Origin: Magnetococcales bacterium
GTDB lineage: Bacteria > Pseudomonadota > Magnetococcia > Magnetococcales > Magnetaquicoccaceae
Assembly: GCA_015231915.1 (NCBI GenBank)
Contig: JADGAR010000039.1
Span: 1-35,365, forward strand
Length of the DNA stretch: 35,365 nucleotides
Direction: 5' to 3'
The stretch's first letter is position 1, and every line of letters begins with the position of its first letter. Of this stretch, positions 12,332-29,747 are shown piece after piece. Under the pieces are notes generated by a model, which had not been told where the DNA came from, did no database searches, and worked only from the letters and a program-made list of their open reading frames with translations. Made by a program: the position numbers and the translations under genes.

Positions 12332-12367
12332 CGCTCTCTTTACCAGCTCGAAAAAGGAACCCGCTCC

Positions 12368-12835
12368 ATGCACACAAAAATCGCAAGCCGCATTGCCCTG
12401 ACCCTGGCCCTGGCCCTTGGCGCCGCAAGCCCGGCTTTCGCCGCCGAGGATTACGTGGTCAACAGCGCCGAGATCGTCAAGGCTGCGGATTGGAAAAACC
12501 TGGAAAAAATCACCGTCACTTTGGAAGAATTCTCCTACCAACCGAAAAAGCTGGTCTTCAAGGAAGGCAAGGCCTATCAGCTCATCCTGAAAAACGCGGG
12601 CGAAAAGAAGCACTACTTCACCGCCCCGGAGTTCTACAAGGCCATCGCCACCCGCAAGATCCAATCCAACAAGGACGGCGAGGTCAAGGCCCCCTACCTG
12701 CTCGCCGTGGAACTGACGGTGGGCGGCCAACTGGATCTCTATTTCGTGCCGGTCAAGAAGGGCACCTACCCGGTCTACTGCACCATCGACGATCATCAAA
12801 AACAAGGCATGGAAGGCCAGATCGTCATCGAGTGA
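12368..12835 (+). CDS. Periplasmic cupredoxin-like type-1 copper protein
   Basis: 155 residues. A clear Sec signal peptide (hydrophobic core ALTLALALG, cleavage after SPAFA) is followed by a single cupredoxin domain. The ligand set of a type-1 copper site is visible: His in EKKHYFTAPEF, then Cys, His and Met in YCTIDDHQKQGMEG. It most likely carries electrons in the periplasm. The start at 12368 is preferred over earlier in-frame ATGs because it puts the signal peptide at the N-terminus and has AAAGGAA 8-10 nt upstream. Five nt separate it from the heme-protein gene downstream, so the pair is probably one operon. A role like FtrB of the FtrABCD iron system is possible but the FtrD/P19 genes lie 11 kb away. 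Confidence 0.88.
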   Translation: MHTKIASRIALTLALALGAASPAFAAEDYVVNSAEIVKAADWKNLEKITVTLEEFSYQPKKLVFKEGKAYQLILKNAGEKKHYFTAPEFYKAIATRKIQSNKDGEVKAPYLLAVELTVGGQLDLYFVPVKKGTYPVYCTIDDHQKQGMEGQIVIE

Positions 12836-12840
12836 CCCCC

Positions 12841-13719
12841 ATGACCACAAAACGATCCGCCTTGCTCATGGGGTGTTTGCTGGCCGGTCTGATGCCCGTT
12901 GCCGGTCGTGCCGCCCCCGCCGCCCCGCCCATCCCGGTCCCGGTCGCCGCCCTGGCGGCGGCCCCGACCGTGGACGGCAATCTGGAGGAGTGGGGTGCGG
13001 ATGGGTGGAGCGACATTCCGGTCAAACCGGCCAAGGAGGACGACCCCGACAACTTCACCGGCAACCTGACGGTGCGCTTCAAGGCCGGCATCGCCGGGGA
13101 TCGGATCTTTCTCGCCTTGCGCTGGCCGGATGCGGCTGCCGACGTGAACTACCGTCCGTGGAAATGGGCCGGCAACCGCTACAAGCGCAGCAAACAGCGG
13201 GATGACATGCTGGCCGTGCGCTTCGACATGGGAGGGGATTATGCCGAGTGCATGCTCTCCAAGACCGACTACCGCGTGGACCTGTGGCAATGGTCCGCCG
13301 GACGGAGCGATCCGGCTGGCGTGGCCGAGGATTTCGTCCAGATCATCACCACCTCGCCGGTGGAAAACGCCGCCGAATACGAACACCCCGAAGGGGGGAT
13401 GGTCTACATCCGCAAGATCCGCGACGCGGGCAATCCGGTGCATGAACTGCTCGATGCCCCCGATGTCAACAAGGGCGACGAACTCCCCGGCGCACGAACC
13501 CTGCAAGGCGGCTCGGGAAGCCTGGTGGATGTCAGCGCCAGGGGGGTGTGGAAGGAGGGTTTCTGGAACCTGGAACTCTCTCGCAAGCTGGATACCGGAC
13601 ACGACGACGACGTGCGCCTGAGCGGCATCCGGGAGATCAGGGGGGCCATCGCCATCTTCAACAACGGCCACGCCGAACACAAAAGCTTCTCGCCGACCCT
13701 GCTGTTCCGCTTTCCTTGA
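12841..13719 (+). CDS. Ethylbenzene dehydrogenase gamma-like periplasmic heme-b-binding protein
   Basis: 292 residues with a signal peptide (MTTKRSALLMGCLLAGLMPV, cleavage near GRA-AP). The mature N-terminus has TVDGNLEEW, the typical start of the EB_dh/CBM9-like beta-sandwich, then FLALRWPDAAAD and later DDMLAVRFDM, AECMLSKTDYRVDLWQW and the terminal FNNGHAEHKSFSPTLLF. In the DMSO-reductase type II enzymes (ethylbenzene dehydrogenase, chlorate and selenate reductase) this fold binds heme b through Met and Lys. No molybdenum or Fe-S subunit gene lies nearby, so this is a stand-alone family member, most simply read as a redox partner of the adjacent copper protein. The actual ligand residues cannot be fixed from sequence alone. 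It converges on the cyclase gene with a 16-nt gap. Confidence 0.8.
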   Translation: MTTKRSALLMGCLLAGLMPVAGRAAPAAPPIPVPVAALAAAPTVDGNLEEWGADGWSDIPVKPAKEDDPDNFTGNLTVRFKAGIAGDRIFLALRWPDAAADVNYRPWKWAGNRYKRSKQRDDMLAVRFDMGGDYAECMLSKTDYRVDLWQWSAGRSDPAGVAEDFVQIITTSPVENAAEYEHPEGGMVYIRKIRDAGNPVHELLDAPDVNKGDELPGARTLQGGSGSLVDVSARGVWKEGFWNLELSRKLDTGHDDDVRLSGIREIRGAIAIFNNGHAEHKSFSPTLLFRFP

Positions 13720-19156: not shown

Positions 19157-19176
19157 TTGATAATGATTAATATCAA
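19157..19176. promoter_or_regulatory. Palindromic FNR- or Fur-like box
   Basis: TTGATA-N8-TATCAA is a perfect inverted repeat. Within it ATGAT-TAAT-ATCAA (19163-19176) matches the FNR consensus TTGATN4ATCAA at 9 of 10 positions, while TGATAATGATTAATA (19158-19172) matches the 7-1-7 Fur box at 12 of 14. Which regulator, if either, uses it cannot be decided from sequence. Confidence 0.35.
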
Positions 19177-22854: not shown

Positions 22855-22873
22855 ATTGATTGCGATTATCAAT
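22855..22873. promoter_or_regulatory. Palindromic Fur-like box upstream of the PilZ/FtrD/P19 operon
   Basis: ATTGAT-N7-ATCAAT is a perfect 6-bp inverted repeat. TGATTGCGATTATCA (22857-22871) matches the 7-1-7 Fur box at 11 of 14 positions, with the right half exact. It is 44 nt before the PilZ start in the otherwise AT-rich 288-nt gap to the kinase gene. The downstream operon encodes iron-related proteins, which makes Fur a sensible candidate. Confidence 0.35.
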
Positions 22874-22916
22874 AGCAAAAATGCCCCTCAACCCTCCAAC
22901 TCCAAGGATCCCAGCG

Positions 22917-23312
22917 ATGTGGCCACGTCATCACATGGAAGCGAACCACAGCCCCACGGAAAGACACATGGATCCGGAGGAGAGCAGGCGGGAAAAACGC
23001 CGTCACGAGCGGTATTTCATGCAGTTTCCCGTCTCCATCGTTTTCGAAAACGGCCAAACCCTGCAAGGGATCTCCCATGACGTGAGCCTGGCCGGCCTGT
23101 TCGTCCATGCCAGACCGACCCTGGACATGGAAGAGACCACCAACGGCGAAGGGACGATCCAAATGGGCAAGGATCGTTATACCTTCAAGTGCCGGGTGGC
23201 CCGGCGCAACGCAGCGGGGTTCGGCATCAGCATCGTCCGCAACAACCCGATCCTGGGTTTTGCCATCACGAACCACATTTTCAACCAGATTTCCACCTGC
23301 CGTCTGATCTGA
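22917..23312 (+). CDS. Small PilZ-domain c-di-GMP receptor protein
   Basis: 131 residues from ATG 22917 (AAGGA 8 nt upstream). ATG at 22968 (GGAAAG about 5 nt upstream) is an equally plausible start that keeps the full PilZ domain and gives 114 residues. The domain has RxxxR in KRRHERYF and DxSxxG in SHDVSLAGLF, so c-di-GMP binding is expected. There is no other domain. It is the first gene of a probable operon: 28 nt to the polyferredoxin gene, which in turn is 23 nt from the P19 gene. Such a position suggests it tunes or is coexpressed with the iron system, though no known mechanism supports this. Confidence 0.85.
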   Translation: MWPRHHMEANHSPTERHMDPEESRREKRRHERYFMQFPVSIVFENGQTLQGISHDVSLAGLFVHARPTLDMEETTNGEGTIQMGKDRYTFKCRVARRNAAGFGISIVRNNPILGFAITNHIFNQISTCRLI

Positions 23313-23340
23313 CCCACGAGCACACCACAGGATAGGATGC

Positions 23341-24867
23341 ATGCCTTCAGGGACCCCCAGGGAGAAGCCAAATCCGGACGAGGATGATTTCGCGCTGCTT
23401 CCGGAGGGGATCCCGGATGCGGCAGCCGAGATGGAGCGCGGCCATGTCTCGCCCACACCTCCCGTGCCGCGCGAGGAGCGGCGCAAACGTCCCGATCAGC
23501 GACGGGCATGGTGGGTGTTGCGCGTGGAGCACTACTTCGCCCTGCGCCGCAACTGGTTTCCCGTCTGGCAACTGCTGACCCTGGTCATCTTCATCGCCCT
23601 CGTGTTCGTTCCCGCCTTTTTGCCCGAGCCTCCGGAAAACGCCACCCCCTGGAACAACTTCACCCGATTCGCCATTCATGCCATGTGGGGCATCTGGTTC
23701 CCGCTGGTGTTGCTTTCGGTGATCCTGGTGGGACGCGCCTGGTGCGGGATGTTCTGTCCGCAGGGGGCGATCTCGGAATGGGCCAGCCGCATCGGCCTGA
23801 AACGGGCGATTCCCAAATGGATGATGTGGTCGGGTTTGCCCATCGTCAGCTTTCTGCTGATCACGATGCTGGGCCAAACCCTGGGGGTGCGCGACCATCC
23901 CGAGGCGATCCTGGAACTGTTCGGGGGCACGCTGCTGCTGGCCCTGGTGGTGGGGCTGCTCTACAGCTACCGACAGCGGGCCTGGTGCCGGCACATGTGT
24001 CCCATCGGCCTGTTGCTGGGGATCTTTTCCCGGCTCGGCTCGGCCTTTTTCAGCTTCAGCGCCCTGCGCCCGGGGGGGGACCGCTACTGCAACAAATGCC
24101 TCTGCCCCACCATGGTGGACATCCGCTACAAATGCGAGTCGCGCCATTGCATCGCCTGCTTCAAGTGCATCACGCCCGGCGCCCGCAACGGCGTCAACCT
24201 GCAATTTCACCGCCCCGGTTGGGAGGTGGAGGCGATTCACGAACACAATCCCAATCTGGCCGAAGTGCAGTTCCTGTTCCTGGCGACCGGCATCGCCCTG
24301 GGGGCGTTCTTGTGGCTGGTGCTGCCGGAATACCAGACGTTCCGGGCCGTGGTGACCGACTGGTTCTTCGATCACGGCTGGTACCGGGCCGGGGAGGCAG
24401 GCCCGGCCTGGCTGATGAGCGTCCATCCCCAGCGGGGGGAGGTTTTCACCTGGATCGACTTTTTGAGCATCAGCGCCTTCATGATCGGCTTCATGGGGTT
24501 TCTCTGGCTGACCCTGACCGCCACCACGGCCTTGACCGCCCGGCTGGCACAAGCTTTGGCCGGGGGGGATTGGCGGGTGCATTTCGTGGCCCTGGGCTAC
24601 CAGTATGCCCCGGTGGCGATGATTTCGCTGCTGCTGGGCCTGGGAGGCGAGCTGTTCAAGATGCTCCACTGGGTGGGGGCGAGCCTGAGCGATATCAATC
24701 AGATCAAGATGGGCATCTTCTATTTTGCCCTGTTCTGGAGCGGTTATCTGGGGTGGTCCATCCTGAGTCACATGGGCATTCCGGCCCGCTGGCGCCTGTT
24801 CCCCATGGCCACCGGCTTGCTGGGCAGTCTGGTAATCGGTTATTTTTGGAAACGTGCCTTGTTCTGA
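23341..24867 (+). CDS. FtrD/NapH-like membrane polyferredoxin (4Fe-4S)
   Basis: 508 residues. A polar N-terminus of about 60 residues precedes several membrane segments. Two CxxxCP motifs (C135-C139-P140 in AWCGMFCPQG; C216-C220-P221 in AWCRHMCPIG) are the mark of NapH/CcoG/FtrD-type membrane proteins. A cytoplasmic cysteine array follows (C250, C253, C255, C265, C270, C273, C276; RYCNKCLCP and CESRHCIACFKC), suited to 4Fe-4S clusters. Further membrane segments fill the C-terminal half. It should pass electrons across the inner membrane. With the P19 gene directly downstream, the closest described context is FtrD of FtrABCD-type ferrous iron uptake. The FTR1 permease (FtrC) is not present. 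Start at ATG 23341 after CAGGATAGG. Confidence 0.87.
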   Translation: MPSGTPREKPNPDEDDFALLPEGIPDAAAEMERGHVSPTPPVPREERRKRPDQRRAWWVLRVEHYFALRRNWFPVWQLLTLVIFIALVFVPAFLPEPPENATPWNNFTRFAIHAMWGIWFPLVLLSVILVGRAWCGMFCPQGAISEWASRIGLKRAIPKWMMWSGLPIVSFLLITMLGQTLGVRDHPEAILELFGGTLLLALVVGLLYSYRQRAWCRHMCPIGLLLGIFSRLGSAFFSFSALRPGGDRYCNKCLCPTMVDIRYKCESRHCIACFKCITPGARNGVNLQFHRPGWEVEAIHEHNPNLAEVQFLFLATGIALGAFLWLVLPEYQTFRAVVTDWFFDHGWYRAGEAGPAWLMSVHPQRGEVFTWIDFLSISAFMIGFMGFLWLTLTATTALTARLAQALAGGDWRVHFVALGYQYAPVAMISLLLGLGGELFKMLHWVGASLSDINQIKMGIFYFALFWSGYLGWSILSHMGIPARWRLFPMATGLLGSLVIGYFWKRALF

Positions 24868-24890
24868 ACCGCCACATAGAGGAGTGACTG

Positions 24891-25460
24891 ATGAAACGTC
24901 CGTTGCATTGGAGTGCCATGATGGCCGGAGTCGCCATGCTGATTCCCTTCTCCACCCAGGCCGCCGTGATGGAGATCGGCAAAGTGGAAACGAATGGGAT
25001 GAAGGTGGCCGGCATCTACATTCAAAGCGTGGTCATGGAGGGCCATGGGGATCACCACGGAGGACATGCCGGGCACGGCGACCATCAGGCGCCGGCAACC
25101 GCACGCGCCGACTCGGACATCCACCTGGAGGCCCAGATTCACGCCCTGGACAAGAATCCCCACGGCTTTGCCGCCGGCTCGTGGATTCCCTACCTCGGCA
25201 TCGAATACAGCCTGGAGAAGGTCGGCTCCGACTGGAAAGCCAAGGGGGTCCTCATCCCCATGGCCTCCGGGGACGGCCCCCACTACGGCGAAAACGTGAA
25301 GCTGGCCGGACCGGGGAAATACAAGGTGGTCTACACGATCAGCCCCCCCTCCATCCCCTACCACGTGGACAAGGAGACGGGTGTGAGCGGTTGGTGGACG
25401 CCCTTCAAGCAGGAATGGGAGTTTAATTATACCGGGACGGGCAAGAAAGGGGGGTATTGA
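24891..25460 (+). CDS. P19/Tp34-family periplasmic iron-binding protein with His-rich insertion
   Basis: 189 residues. The signal peptide (MKRPLHWSAMMAGVAMLIPF, cleavage after STQA) is followed by the P19/FtrA fold: GIYIQSVVME, ADSDIHLEAQIHA, IPYLGIEYSLEK, KYKVVYTISPPS and YHVDKETGV. P19 proteins bind copper and iron through Met, Glu and His residues and deliver iron to an FTR1 permease. A loop at about 50-66 holds seven His in 16 residues (GHGDHHGGHAGHGDH), an insertion in the usual strand connection that could add metal-binding capacity. The ribosome-binding site GAGGAG 6 nt before ATG is the strongest in this operon. It ends 31 nt before a strong hairpin. Confidence 0.9.
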   Translation: MKRPLHWSAMMAGVAMLIPFSTQAAVMEIGKVETNGMKVAGIYIQSVVMEGHGDHHGGHAGHGDHQAPATARADSDIHLEAQIHALDKNPHGFAAGSWIPYLGIEYSLEKVGSDWKAKGVLIPMASGDGPHYGENVKLAGPGKYKVVYTISPPSIPYHVDKETGVSGWWTPFKQEWEFNYTGTGKKGGY

Positions 25461-25542: not shown

Positions 25543-26973
25543 TTACTGCTCCCGGGCCGGCGCGGCAGGCGGGGCATGATCGTGATGCTCCGGAGCGGGG
25601 GCGACGGCGGGCGAACCGTGATCGTGCGGTGCCGGAGCAGGGGCAGCGGCGGGCGGCGGCGCATGATCGTGATGCGCCGGAGCGGGGGCAGCGGCGGGCG
25701 GCGGCGCATGATCGTGATGCGCGGGAGCGGGAGCGGGAGCGGCGGCAGGCGAACCATGATCGTGCTGCGCCGGGGCGGGAACGGACGGCGGCGCATGATC
25801 GTGCTGCGCCGGAGCGGGAGCGGCAGCGGGCGAACCGTGATCGTGCTGCGCCGGAGCCGGGGCGGGTGCACCGTGATCGTGGTGGTCATGCGACGCCGGT
25901 TCCGGTTCCGCACCCGGACGAATGAACGTCTTGAAGACATATTCGGCCAGATTGGCGATCTCCTGATCGGTGAGAACCTTGTTCCAGGCCGGCATTTCCG
26001 TGCCGCGCATCCCTTCCGCAATCACATCGAACAGGTGGGAACGGTTGAACTTATGCTGAGACGCCGGATGCAGGAAATTCCTGGGCTTGGGATAGATGAA
26101 TTCGGAACGCCTGCCCTTGCCGTCCCCGGTTTCGCCATGACAGTCCGCGCAATGGCGGTCATAGAACTGCTTGCCCCATACCACATTGCCGGTCAACCCT
26201 TTCGGCATGGGCGCATTCATGCTGGCCGTGTCGAAATGGCTGTTGTGGTCATGGGGTTGCGCGCTGTCATGAGCGGCTTCCGGCTTGCGCGCCGGCTCCC
26301 CCGCGCCGCCGGGAAACAGGAAGGCGTGCCGAATATAATCGACCACCTGTTCGATCTCCTCGGTCTTGAGACGCCCCACCCAGGCCGGCATGGCGGTTTC
26401 GGCCCGGCCATAGGTGACGGAAAAGACCATGCGCTCACGGGTGAGTTCCCTGCGCGCCAGATCCGAGGTGAAATTGCGCGGGGCCGGGGAAAGACCGCTG
26501 CGCGCCCAAACCGCCACATCCCCCTTGTCCCCATGACAGACGGAACAGTTGCTGGCGAAGATCTTGCGACCTGGACTCGCATCCTTGTCGTAGGAGGAGA
26601 GCATCAGGTCGTCACGAATGTATTCGGTCACGGCGAGAATCTCCTCATCGGAGAGCACCCCTTGCCAGGCGACCATGGCGGTTCCCTTGCGCCCTTCGCG
26701 AATGGAACGCACCATCCGCTCCCTGGTCAGGGTGACCAGCGCGCCCGGCGCGGTGAAATCTCCGGGGGGGGGTTGCATGCCGCTCCCGGCTGTGGTCCTG
26801 CCATCACCGGACTTGCCGTGGCAGACGGCACAATGTTTCCGATAGAGGTCTGCCGCCGGGGCTGCGGCATCCGCACTCAGCCAGGGCAGGCAAACCATGA
26901 GCGACACCGCCGCCCGACGCACCAGGGCGCCCGGCGAAAAACGCAAAAACAAAAAATGCGGGATTGCGAACAT
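25543..26973 (-). CDS. Periplasmic tri-domain cytochrome c with His-rich repetitive tail
   Basis: 476 residues. A signal peptide with a long basic N-region (cleavage near ADA-AA) is followed by three class I cytochrome c domains: CAVCH (48-52), CSVCH (143-147) and CADCH (275-279), each with a downstream Met in an AM- or EMPAW-type ligand context (GTAMVAW, TAMPAW, TEMPAW). A His-rich linker (AQPHDHNSHFD) separates domains 2 and 3. Residues 361-476 are a Pro/Ala-rich tail holding nine HDH motifs at fairly regular spacing. The hemes suit electron transfer in the periplasm; the tail resembles metal-binding His repeats. AAGGAA lies 6 nt before the ATG. It converges on the P19 operon, suggesting a shared link to iron or copper, but no enzyme partner is adjacent. 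Confidence 0.92.
   Translation of the reverse strand: MFAIPHFLFLRFSPGALVRRAAVSLMVCLPWLSADAAAPAADLYRKHCAVCHGKSGDGRTTAGSGMQPPPGDFTAPGALVTLTRERMVRSIREGRKGTAMVAWQGVLSDEEILAVTEYIRDDLMLSSYDKDASPGRKIFASNCSVCHGDKGDVAVWARSGLSPAPRNFTSDLARRELTRERMVFSVTYGRAETAMPAWVGRLKTEEIEQVVDYIRHAFLFPGGAGEPARKPEAAHDSAQPHDHNSHFDTASMNAPMPKGLTGNVVWGKQFYDRHCADCHGETGDGKGRRSEFIYPKPRNFLHPASQHKFNRSHLFDVIAEGMRGTEMPAWNKVLTDQEIANLAEYVFKTFIRPGAEPEPASHDHHDHGAPAPAPAQHDHGSPAAAPAPAQHDHAPPSVPAPAQHDHGSPAAAPAPAPAHHDHAPPPAAAPAPAHHDHAPPPAAAPAPAPHDHGSPAVAPAPEHHDHAPPAAPAREQ
25546..25893 (-). repeat. In-frame repeats coding the HDH/Pro-Ala tail
   Basis: Imperfect repeats of about 36-45 bp (unit: HDHGSP or HHDHAPP followed by an Ala/Pro spacer such as AAAPAPA) make up the 3' end of the cytochrome gene. 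Eight repeat units carry nine HDH triplets. The DNA is very GC-rich and would be prone to slippage, so length may vary between strains. Confidence 0.9.
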
Positions 26974-27119
26974 ACGAAATTCCTTGTCAAGTGAAAATGG
27001 CCATTGCCAGAACGGATTCGCAACATTAAGAAGGCGTGCGTCATTTGAAAGAGTAGCATTTCAGACGCCGTGGTTCAACCGCAACCGGTCGGATCATGCG
27101 TCGAGACCGAAATCCCGTT

Positions 27120-27148
27120 TTGCTTCCCCCTGCGGATTCTGATACACT
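27120..27148 (+). promoter_or_regulatory. Candidate promoter of the GGDEF-EAL gene
   Basis: TTGCTT (27120-27125), 17-nt spacer, TACACT (27143-27148) preceded by TGA, giving an extended -10. It lies 37 nt before the ATG at 27186. The -35 match is weak. Confidence 0.33.
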
Positions 27149-27185
27149 TGGTTACAGGGGGAGAGGTCACCGTTGGGAGGCATCC

Positions 27186-29747
27186 ATGCGCGCTGCGCCG
27201 AAATTCAGGCTTCTGTTTCTCACAAGCATGTCGATCATGCTTGTCCTGCTCGGCCTGCTCGGGTACCTGCACCGACAGGTGATGACCGGACAGCTCATCG
27301 ACCTGAGCGCAAAGAATCACCTCCTGCTCACCCACCTCATGGCCAACGGCCTGTGGTCCAACCTCGACCAACTGGTCCATCTCTCCACGACCGATCCCGA
27401 TACCCTGCGTCGGCATCCCGAAATGGAGAACCTGCGCAAGGCAGTCGCTCACTACTCGCAAGATTTTCCGCTCCTTGAATTGAAGATCTACAATCGTCAC
27501 GGGGTGACCCTCTTTTCCACCCGTCCCGAAAAGATCGGCGAGGACCAGTCCCGCAATCCCTCCTTTCAACTCGCCCTCAAAGGCGGCGTGATCAGCGAAC
27601 TCGTTCCGGACACCGGGACCTCCGCCGATGGAGGAAATGCGGATCGATTCATGATGGAAAGCTACGTACCGTTGCGCCATGGGATGGATCAGCATATCGA
27701 GGGGGTCTTCGAACTCTATCAGGATGTCACCCCGCTCATGCAGCGCATCAACAGCGCCCGCTGGCAGGAACTCCTCGCCACCGGCTGCGCCTTTCTGGCC
27801 CTCGCAGGCCTGTTCGGCTTCATGATCCGCTACCTGCAAAACGCCTTGAACATCCATGAACAAAACCGCCAGGCCTTCATCCAACGCATCCAGGAGGACA
27901 AGGAAGGACTCGAACAACGGGTCGCGGAACGTACCAGCGAGTTGCGCAAGACCAATACGGCCCTCCAGATCGAAGTCGCGGTGCGCCGTCAGACAGAGGT
28001 CGAACTCTGCCTGGCCGCCAGCGTCTACCAGAACACCACCGAAGCCATTCTGGTCACCGACGCCAAAGGGGTGATCGAGTCCGTCAACCCGGCCTTCACC
28101 ACCATCACCGGCTATAGCGAGGAAGAGGCGCTCCACAACCCGGTCAGCATGCTCTATTCCAATCACCACGACGAGGCATTCTACGATTTTATCCATCACG
28201 AACTGGATACCCATGGCAAATGGCGCGGCGAGATGTGGTCGCAACGCAAGAACGGCTCCCTCTACCCGGAATTCGCCAGCATCAACGCCATTTACGACGG
28301 GAATGGCCAGATCATGCGGTTCGTCAAGGTCTTTTCCGATCTCTCCGGCATCAAACGCTCCGAACAGCAACTCCAGTTTCTCGTCCATCACGACTCCCTC
28401 ACCGGGCTGCCCAACCGCATCCTGCTCAAGGACCGCATGCGCCAGGCCTTCTCCTATGCCCAGCGTTTCAACCAGGTGGTGGGCATCCTCTTTCTGGGGC
28501 TGGACCGCTTCAAGTTGATCAACGAGGCGGTGGGCCGCGAGGTGGGCGATCAACTCCTCCGCGAGGTGGGGGTCCGGCTCGGCCAGTGTCTGCGCGACGA
28601 GGACTCACTGGCCAGGGTCGGCGGCGACGAATACGTGATCCTGGCCACCGGTCTGCAACAGGGATCCAATGCCAGCCGCATCGCCAAAAAGCTCCTCGAG
28701 GCCCTCAACGCGCCCTGTCAGATCGACAACGAGCGCTATTTCCTCACCGGCAGCATCGGCATCTCCCTCTTTCCCACGGACGAGGGGGACGAGGAGGAAC
28801 ACCTCAAGAAGGCCGAGTCCGCCATGCGCCAGGCCAAGGACCTGGGCGGCAACGCCAGCCACTTCTTCACCAGGGAAATCGATGTCGTCTCCATCAAACG
28901 CATGACCATCGAAAACGGCCTGCGCCTCGCCCTGGAACGCGACGAGCTGTTCTTGCACTATCAACCCCAGATTCATGTGGTCACCGGTCGCCTCATGGGC
29001 GTGGAGGCCCTCATCCGCTGGAAGAGTCCGGAACTCGGCCTGGTCTCTCCGGTCAATTTCATCCCGGTGGCCGAGGAGAGCGACCTGATCATCGCCATCG
29101 GCGACTGGGTCATGCGTACCGCCTGCCAACAGAGCATGCGCTGGCAGGAAGAGGGATTCGCCCCCATCCGCATGGCGGTCAATCTCTCCGCGCGGCAGTT
29201 CCAGCAGCCCGATCTCCCGGCCAAACTCCAACAGGTGTTGCGGGATACCGGTCTGGATCCCCATCTTTTGGAACTGGAACTCACCGAGGGGATGTTCATG
29301 CGCGATGTCTCGGCCACCGTGAATACCCTGCATACCCTCAAGGAGATGGACCTGCAGCTCTCCATCGACGACTTCGGCACCGGCTACTCTTCCCTGAGCT
29401 ATCTCAAGCGTTTTCCCATTCATACCCTGAAGATCGACCGGGCCTTCGTGCGCGACATCATCTCCGATCCGGACGACGCGGCCATCACCAGGACCATCAT
29501 CGCCATGGCCAAGACCCTCAACCTCCAGGTGGTGGCCGAAGGGGTGGCGTCTCCGGATCAACTGGAGTTTCTGCGCACCCTGGGCTGCGATCTGGTACAG
29601 GGATTCCTCTTCAGCCAGCCCGTCCCCCCGGAGGAGATCGCCCTCTTTCTGGAGGAAGACCAGGTCTATCGCCAACAGCCCGAATTCGCGCCCAAGCTCC
29701 TGTCCGGATCGGGAACGCCATTGATTTTTCCTGGATCGAGCGCATAA
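27186..29747 (+). CDS. Membrane PAS-GGDEF-EAL protein, probable c-di-GMP phosphodiesterase
   Basis: 853 residues. TM1 is at 9-28, then a periplasmic sensor of about 170 residues, TM2 near 200-222, a coiled coil, PAS (TEAILVTDAKGVIESVNPAF), GGDEF and EAL domains. The EAL active site is complete: GVEALIRW, NLSARQ, ELTEGMF, DDFGTGYSSLSYLKRF, LKIDRAF, VAEGV and QGF. The GGDEF domain keeps VGGDEY and an RxxD I-site (RDED), but the first metal-binding Asp, normally in a DLDRFK-type motif, is Gly (FLGLDRFK), so cyclase activity is doubtful. The likely net role is c-di-GMP hydrolysis, with the GGDEF domain possibly regulatory. The start at 27186 has GGGAGG 5 nt upstream, much better than earlier in-frame codons. 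It converges on the glycosyltransferase gene with a 12-nt gap. Confidence 0.93.
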   Translation: MRAAPKFRLLFLTSMSIMLVLLGLLGYLHRQVMTGQLIDLSAKNHLLLTHLMANGLWSNLDQLVHLSTTDPDTLRRHPEMENLRKAVAHYSQDFPLLELKIYNRHGVTLFSTRPEKIGEDQSRNPSFQLALKGGVISELVPDTGTSADGGNADRFMMESYVPLRHGMDQHIEGVFELYQDVTPLMQRINSARWQELLATGCAFLALAGLFGFMIRYLQNALNIHEQNRQAFIQRIQEDKEGLEQRVAERTSELRKTNTALQIEVAVRRQTEVELCLAASVYQNTTEAILVTDAKGVIESVNPAFTTITGYSEEEALHNPVSMLYSNHHDEAFYDFIHHELDTHGKWRGEMWSQRKNGSLYPEFASINAIYDGNGQIMRFVKVFSDLSGIKRSEQQLQFLVHHDSLTGLPNRILLKDRMRQAFSYAQRFNQVVGILFLGLDRFKLINEAVGREVGDQLLREVGVRLGQCLRDEDSLARVGGDEYVILATGLQQGSNASRIAKKLLEALNAPCQIDNERYFLTGSIGISLFPTDEGDEEEHLKKAESAMRQAKDLGGNASHFFTREIDVVSIKRMTIENGLRLALERDELFLHYQPQIHVVTGRLMGVEALIRWKSPELGLVSPVNFIPVAEESDLIIAIGDWVMRTACQQSMRWQEEGFAPIRMAVNLSARQFQQPDLPAKLQQVLRDTGLDPHLLELELTEGMFMRDVSATVNTLHTLKEMDLQLSIDDFGTGYSSLSYLKRFPIHTLKIDRAFVRDIISDPDDAAITRTIIAMAKTLNLQVVAEGVASPDQLEFLRTLGCDLVQGFLFSQPVPPEEIALFLEEDQVYRQQPEFAPKLLSGSGTPLIFPGSSA

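Follow-up and report, generated by a model that had tools for sequence, protein, structure and literature searches.

The locus described here encodes an FtrD-type membrane iron-sulfur (Fe-S) protein and a P19-type periplasmic metal protein as a two-gene unit in a magnetotactic-type bacterium in which the usual iron permease, FTR1, was not detected. In the current view, P19 and FtrD assist the FTR1 permease, and no description of an FTR1-less FtrD-P19 pair was found in the portion of the open-licence literature available to us. On balance, and with a good deal of caution, our results incline us to regard FtrD-P19 as an iron-responsive two-gene module for metal capture and redox chemistry that may exist without FTR1. 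The window, that is, the whole 35,365-nucleotide stretch of Magnetococcales DNA that was analysed, contains the following features:

12344..13716, + strand: pair of genes for a cupredoxin and an EB_dh heme protein
22857..22877, + strand: Fur-box-like site TGATTGCGATTATCAATAGCA, agreeing with the 7-1-7 consensus at 11/14 positions; a 10/14 match overlaps it
22917..23312, + strand: PilZ-domain protein of 131 aa (PF07238), RxxxR and DxSxxG motifs intact
23341..24867, + strand: FtrD-like (NapH-type) membrane Fe-S protein of 508 aa (PF12801), with invariant C135, C139, C216, C220, C255, C270, C273 and C276
24891..25460, + strand: P19/FtrA-type periplasmic metal protein of 189 aa (PF10634), with conserved H78, E80, M124, D128, H131 and H158
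25543..26973, - strand: triheme cytochrome c whose C-terminal part carries ten HDH motifs
27096..29747, + strand: PAS-GGDEF-EAL protein

The PilZ, FtrD and P19 genes are co-oriented, with intergenic gaps of 28 nt (PilZ-FtrD) and 23 nt (FtrD-P19), and the domain matches confirm the identities that the original prediction had assigned to the three products. In the host assembly (4.02 Mb, 133 contigs, completeness estimate 100%), P19 is present as a single copy by genome-wide search, no second full-length FtrD relative was found, and PilZ domains number 17. The closest named relatives are Magnetococcales MAGs. With respect to one relative, G001, dN/dS amounts to 0.25 for FtrD, 0.20 for P19 and 0.31 for PilZ, and by this measure all three genes are under purifying selection.

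The P19 protein matches PF10634 with 162.8 bits against a cut-off of 21, and its best solved relative is FtrA-P19 (7r4z, E 9e-42), the other close entries being likewise named FtrA or P19; the FtrA-P19 entries are presumably linked to Rubrivivax gelatinosus. H78, E80, M124, D128, H131 and H158 are invariant in an alignment of 13 FTR1-less and 27 FTR1-adjacent P19s, and five of them (H78, E80, M124, H131 and H158) presumably correspond to the published His/Glu/Met metal ligand positions. Judged from the alignment, the metal ligands of the window P19 are intact. All three Magnetococcales P19 copies carry, in addition, an added His-rich loop.

The FtrD-like protein matches PF12801 (Fer4_5) twice, comprises about eight hydrophobic segments and holds eight cysteines that are invariant in 41 sequences. 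It matches the gene that follows FTR1 in a P19-FTR1-FtrD locus (L008) as well as P19-linked genes in two further loci (L009 and L010), and by these sequence features an FtrD-type membrane Fe-S protein is present at the locus. The Fer4_5 domain and CxxxCP motifs are shared with NapH-like membrane Fe-S proteins, but the window protein scores far under curated NapH cut-offs (37.5 bits for the NCBIfam NapH model, cut-off 234). Searches of PDB sequences with FtrD and with PilZ gave no match, and Foldseek with the FtrD model (mean pLDDT 81) returned none at E<=0.001, so that no function can be drawn from the fold.

Scanning genome contigs for FtrD yielded 51 loci, 45 of which carry P19 on the FtrD strand, 43 after FtrD and two before it (L059 and L063). 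The spacing is within 215 nt in 42 of those 43, the remaining one (L064) being at 722 nt. No P19 was seen at six of the 51 loci (L029, L034, L037, L038, L040 and L056), with less than 500 nt of sequence available past FtrD at L037 and L056. By gene order, the succession FtrD-P19 forms a widespread conserved module, and PilZ lies outside it: a PilZ gene upstream of FtrD occurs only in the window and in a close relative, L014, among the 51 database loci. The concern, raised with the original prediction, that the trio might be confined to this genome thus nearly describes the situation of PilZ and does not apply to FtrD-P19, which is found in that order at 43/51 loci.

FTR1 (PF03239) was not found in the host genome by a search in which four control genomes were positive, and it was likewise not found in 46 of 48 genomes of the class, which bears out the predicted absence of the permease. 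The two class genomes with FTR1 have no P19, and P19 occurs in three of the 48, all in the host's genus. Since the assembly is in 133 contigs, an FTR1 gene may still have been lost at a contig break. It is improbable, in our estimation, that the permease lies in unassembled sequence or that the pair is left over from a lost FTR1 system: the draft state of the assembly and the majority of FTR1-adjacent relatives (31/54 rows of the FtrD tree) would fit this explanation, but searches of G001, G003 and most class genomes gave no FTR1 either, and dN/dS values of 0.20-0.25 together with intact ligands argue against a remnant.

The expectation that P19 and FtrD normally act with FTR1 holds insofar as loci ordered FtrD-P19 usually have FTR1 upstream, and seems not to hold throughout: in the 50 of 51 genomes from the FtrD scan that the FTR1 search took in, FTR1 was found in 36 and not detected in 14, which belong to several lineages and are mostly MAGs lacking completeness figures, two of them being the Magnetococcales relatives themselves. 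On the FtrD tree, whose outgroup rows L009 and L010, from genomes outside the FTR1 search, have distFTR1 as their default label, the FTR1-less label requires 8 changes, at least 4 of them forced by supported branches. Pairs without FTR1 are thus a recurring arrangement and no peculiarity of the host genome. No shared substitute for FTR1 was found beside them, as assessed by gene calling at 12 non-Magnetococcales loci and by Pfam for ten selected neighbours. Individual neighbourhoods hold various other genes: at L024 (4330-9263) an FTR1-less FtrD-P19 pair is followed downstream by porin, FMN_bind and PepSY_TM genes, resembling a ferric-reductase neighbourhood; a thioredoxin-like gene lies near the FTR1-less pair of L032; and multicopper-oxidase domains are encoded about 2 kb beyond that of L052 (8052-9182).

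Regulatory sequences point in the direction of iron. The site upstream of PilZ (22857-22871) agrees with the Fur 7-1-7 consensus at only 11/14 positions (shuffle p 0.03), and the block that holds it is identical in G001. Taking a match as significant when its score is reached by at most 5% of dinucleotide shuffles, Fur-like sites with p<=0.05 were found upstream of 13 among 23 FtrD-P19 or FTR1-FtrD-P19 operons, vs 2 of 53 control regions, taken upstream of other genes from FTR1-less loci. The operon starts were picked by the analyst and some of the 23 are close relatives, so that a p-value combined over them comes out too small. The difference nonetheless speaks for iron control of the module both with and without FTR1, though not every FTR1-less locus outside Magnetococcales reaches the same threshold (5 of 11). 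The FtrD-P19 module is, on this evidence, probably under iron regulation. Given its position, the Fur-like site places the PilZ gene within the presumed transcript of the window, which suggests that PilZ, FtrD and P19 are now iron-regulated together. A further Fur-box-like match (12/14) lies at 19158-19175, with a response regulator on one side and the first PilZ gene on the other.

Comparison with characterised systems delimits how such a module could operate. As in FtrABCD of Bordetella and Brucella (PMC11966278), P19-type and FtrD-type proteins are encoded together and have a role in iron; unlike FtrABCD, the window has no detected FTR1-family FtrC, the order is FtrD then P19, and the operon is without the FtrB cupredoxin. 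The published FtrABCD model relies on the FtrC permease and a ferrous oxidase (PMC11966278), so that the window system cannot work in exactly this way. The FtrAPBCD system of Rubrivivax gelatinosus has its likeness to the window in the closest solved relatives of the window P19, entries named FtrA-P19, but its FtrC permease was not found in the window system. With FetMP and FetMP-FetABCDEF of Campylobacter and E. coli (PMC10783030), the window shares a P19/FetP homologue; it differs in lacking the FetM permease and adjacent ABC or thioredoxin genes, and in having an FtrD-like protein instead.

Further redox genes lie near the pair. The triheme cytochrome gene (25543-26973) is kept in G001 between P19 and GGDEF-EAL. 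Its ten HDH motifs sit in an Ala/Pro-rich C-terminal tail, which may be metal-binding. No cupredoxin was seen in the window other than one that is encoded about 10 kb upstream of FtrD-P19 and paired with EB_dh. The pair has this distance of about 10 kb in G000 and G001, and in G003 its orthologue immediately precedes FtrD-P19 (L015). An arrangement in which the His-loop P19, the HDH triheme cytochrome and cupredoxin-EB_dh make up a periplasmic chain for electrons or copper, and not an iron-uptake accessory, would accommodate the His-rich loop of the three Magnetococcales P19s, the HDH motifs of the adjoining cytochrome and the gene order of G003. We nevertheless consider it unlikely, as the Fur-like sites point to iron and cupredoxin-EB_dh occurs widely in class members that have no P19. 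Being a conserved two-gene unit common in many Magnetococcia genomes without P19, cupredoxin-EB_dh was rejected as an obligate partner of FtrD-P19. With regard to ferrous iron import, FeoA and the start of FeoB were found at the end of contig C63 (L162:1196-1875) and a further FeoB_N fragment at the end of contig C29; FeoB_C was not detected in the genome, the best FeoB copy being cut by the contig end.

The window PilZ matches PF07238 with 39 bits, its RRHER (RxxxR) and DVSLAG (DxSxxG) motifs are intact in translation, and by these motifs it is a predicted c-di-GMP receptor. Seven genus genomes in which P19 was not detected hold orthologues of it (44-54% identity), and in G002, G005, G006, G007, G008 and G009 these directly precede the orthologue of the PAS-GGDEF-EAL gene (27096-29747). 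In most such genomes another PilZ gene and one for a FecR-like protein lie upstream, forming a FecR/PilZ/PilZ/GGDEF-EAL cluster; G010 has the FecR-PilZ-PilZ part, the stretch read there giving no match to GGDEF-EAL, and no close PilZ was found in G003 and G004. The proposal that PilZ is the defining lead gene of the operon is not sustained by this distribution. In the window, FtrD, P19 and the cytochrome c gene separate PilZ from GGDEF-EAL, and G001 is collinear, with about 9.5 kb extra between P19 and the cytochrome. This extra segment starts with a PDDEXK_2 transposase-family gene. Most likely, by parsimony across 11 genus genomes, several of them incomplete, FtrD-P19 was inserted into an older c-di-GMP cluster, loss from the other genus members being less likely, and PilZ stands beside FtrD-P19 because the unit landed within these older signalling genes.

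It could be argued, alternatively and in line with the original prediction, that PilZ binds c-di-GMP and thereby governs how active or how abundant FtrD-P19 is. The intact PilZ motifs, the 28-nt gap to ftrD, the Fur-like site upstream of PilZ, the retention of the arrangement in G001 with a PilZ dN/dS of 0.31 and the density of c-di-GMP genes in the window are compatible with such tuning. We find it doubtful, since most of the genus has PilZ orthologues by GGDEF-EAL without FtrD-P19, cupredoxin-EB_dh takes the upstream place in G003, the third genome with P19, and PilZ occupies that position in no other lineage among the 51 loci.

The findings presented here allow us to outline how an iron-responsive FtrD-P19 module may function without FTR1. 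Following insertion of the pair between PilZ and GGDEF-EAL, PilZ would have become co-transcribed with it; P19 would capture periplasmic iron, with copper as in characterised relatives; FtrD would carry electrons across the inner membrane, setting the redox state of the P19-captured metal; and ferrous iron would then enter via another importer such as Feo. A more far-reaching version, which we put forward only tentatively, is that FtrD-P19 is an FTR1-independent, Fur-regulated system with repeated occurrence across Proteobacteria, and that a c-di-GMP cluster captured it in this genus, bringing iron status and a c-di-GMP receptor onto one transcript. If true, the repeated occurrence of pairs that lack FTR1 and show iron-type regulation would mean a permease-independent function for FtrD-P19, and the role of FtrD, still unsettled, would thereby become open to direct testing.
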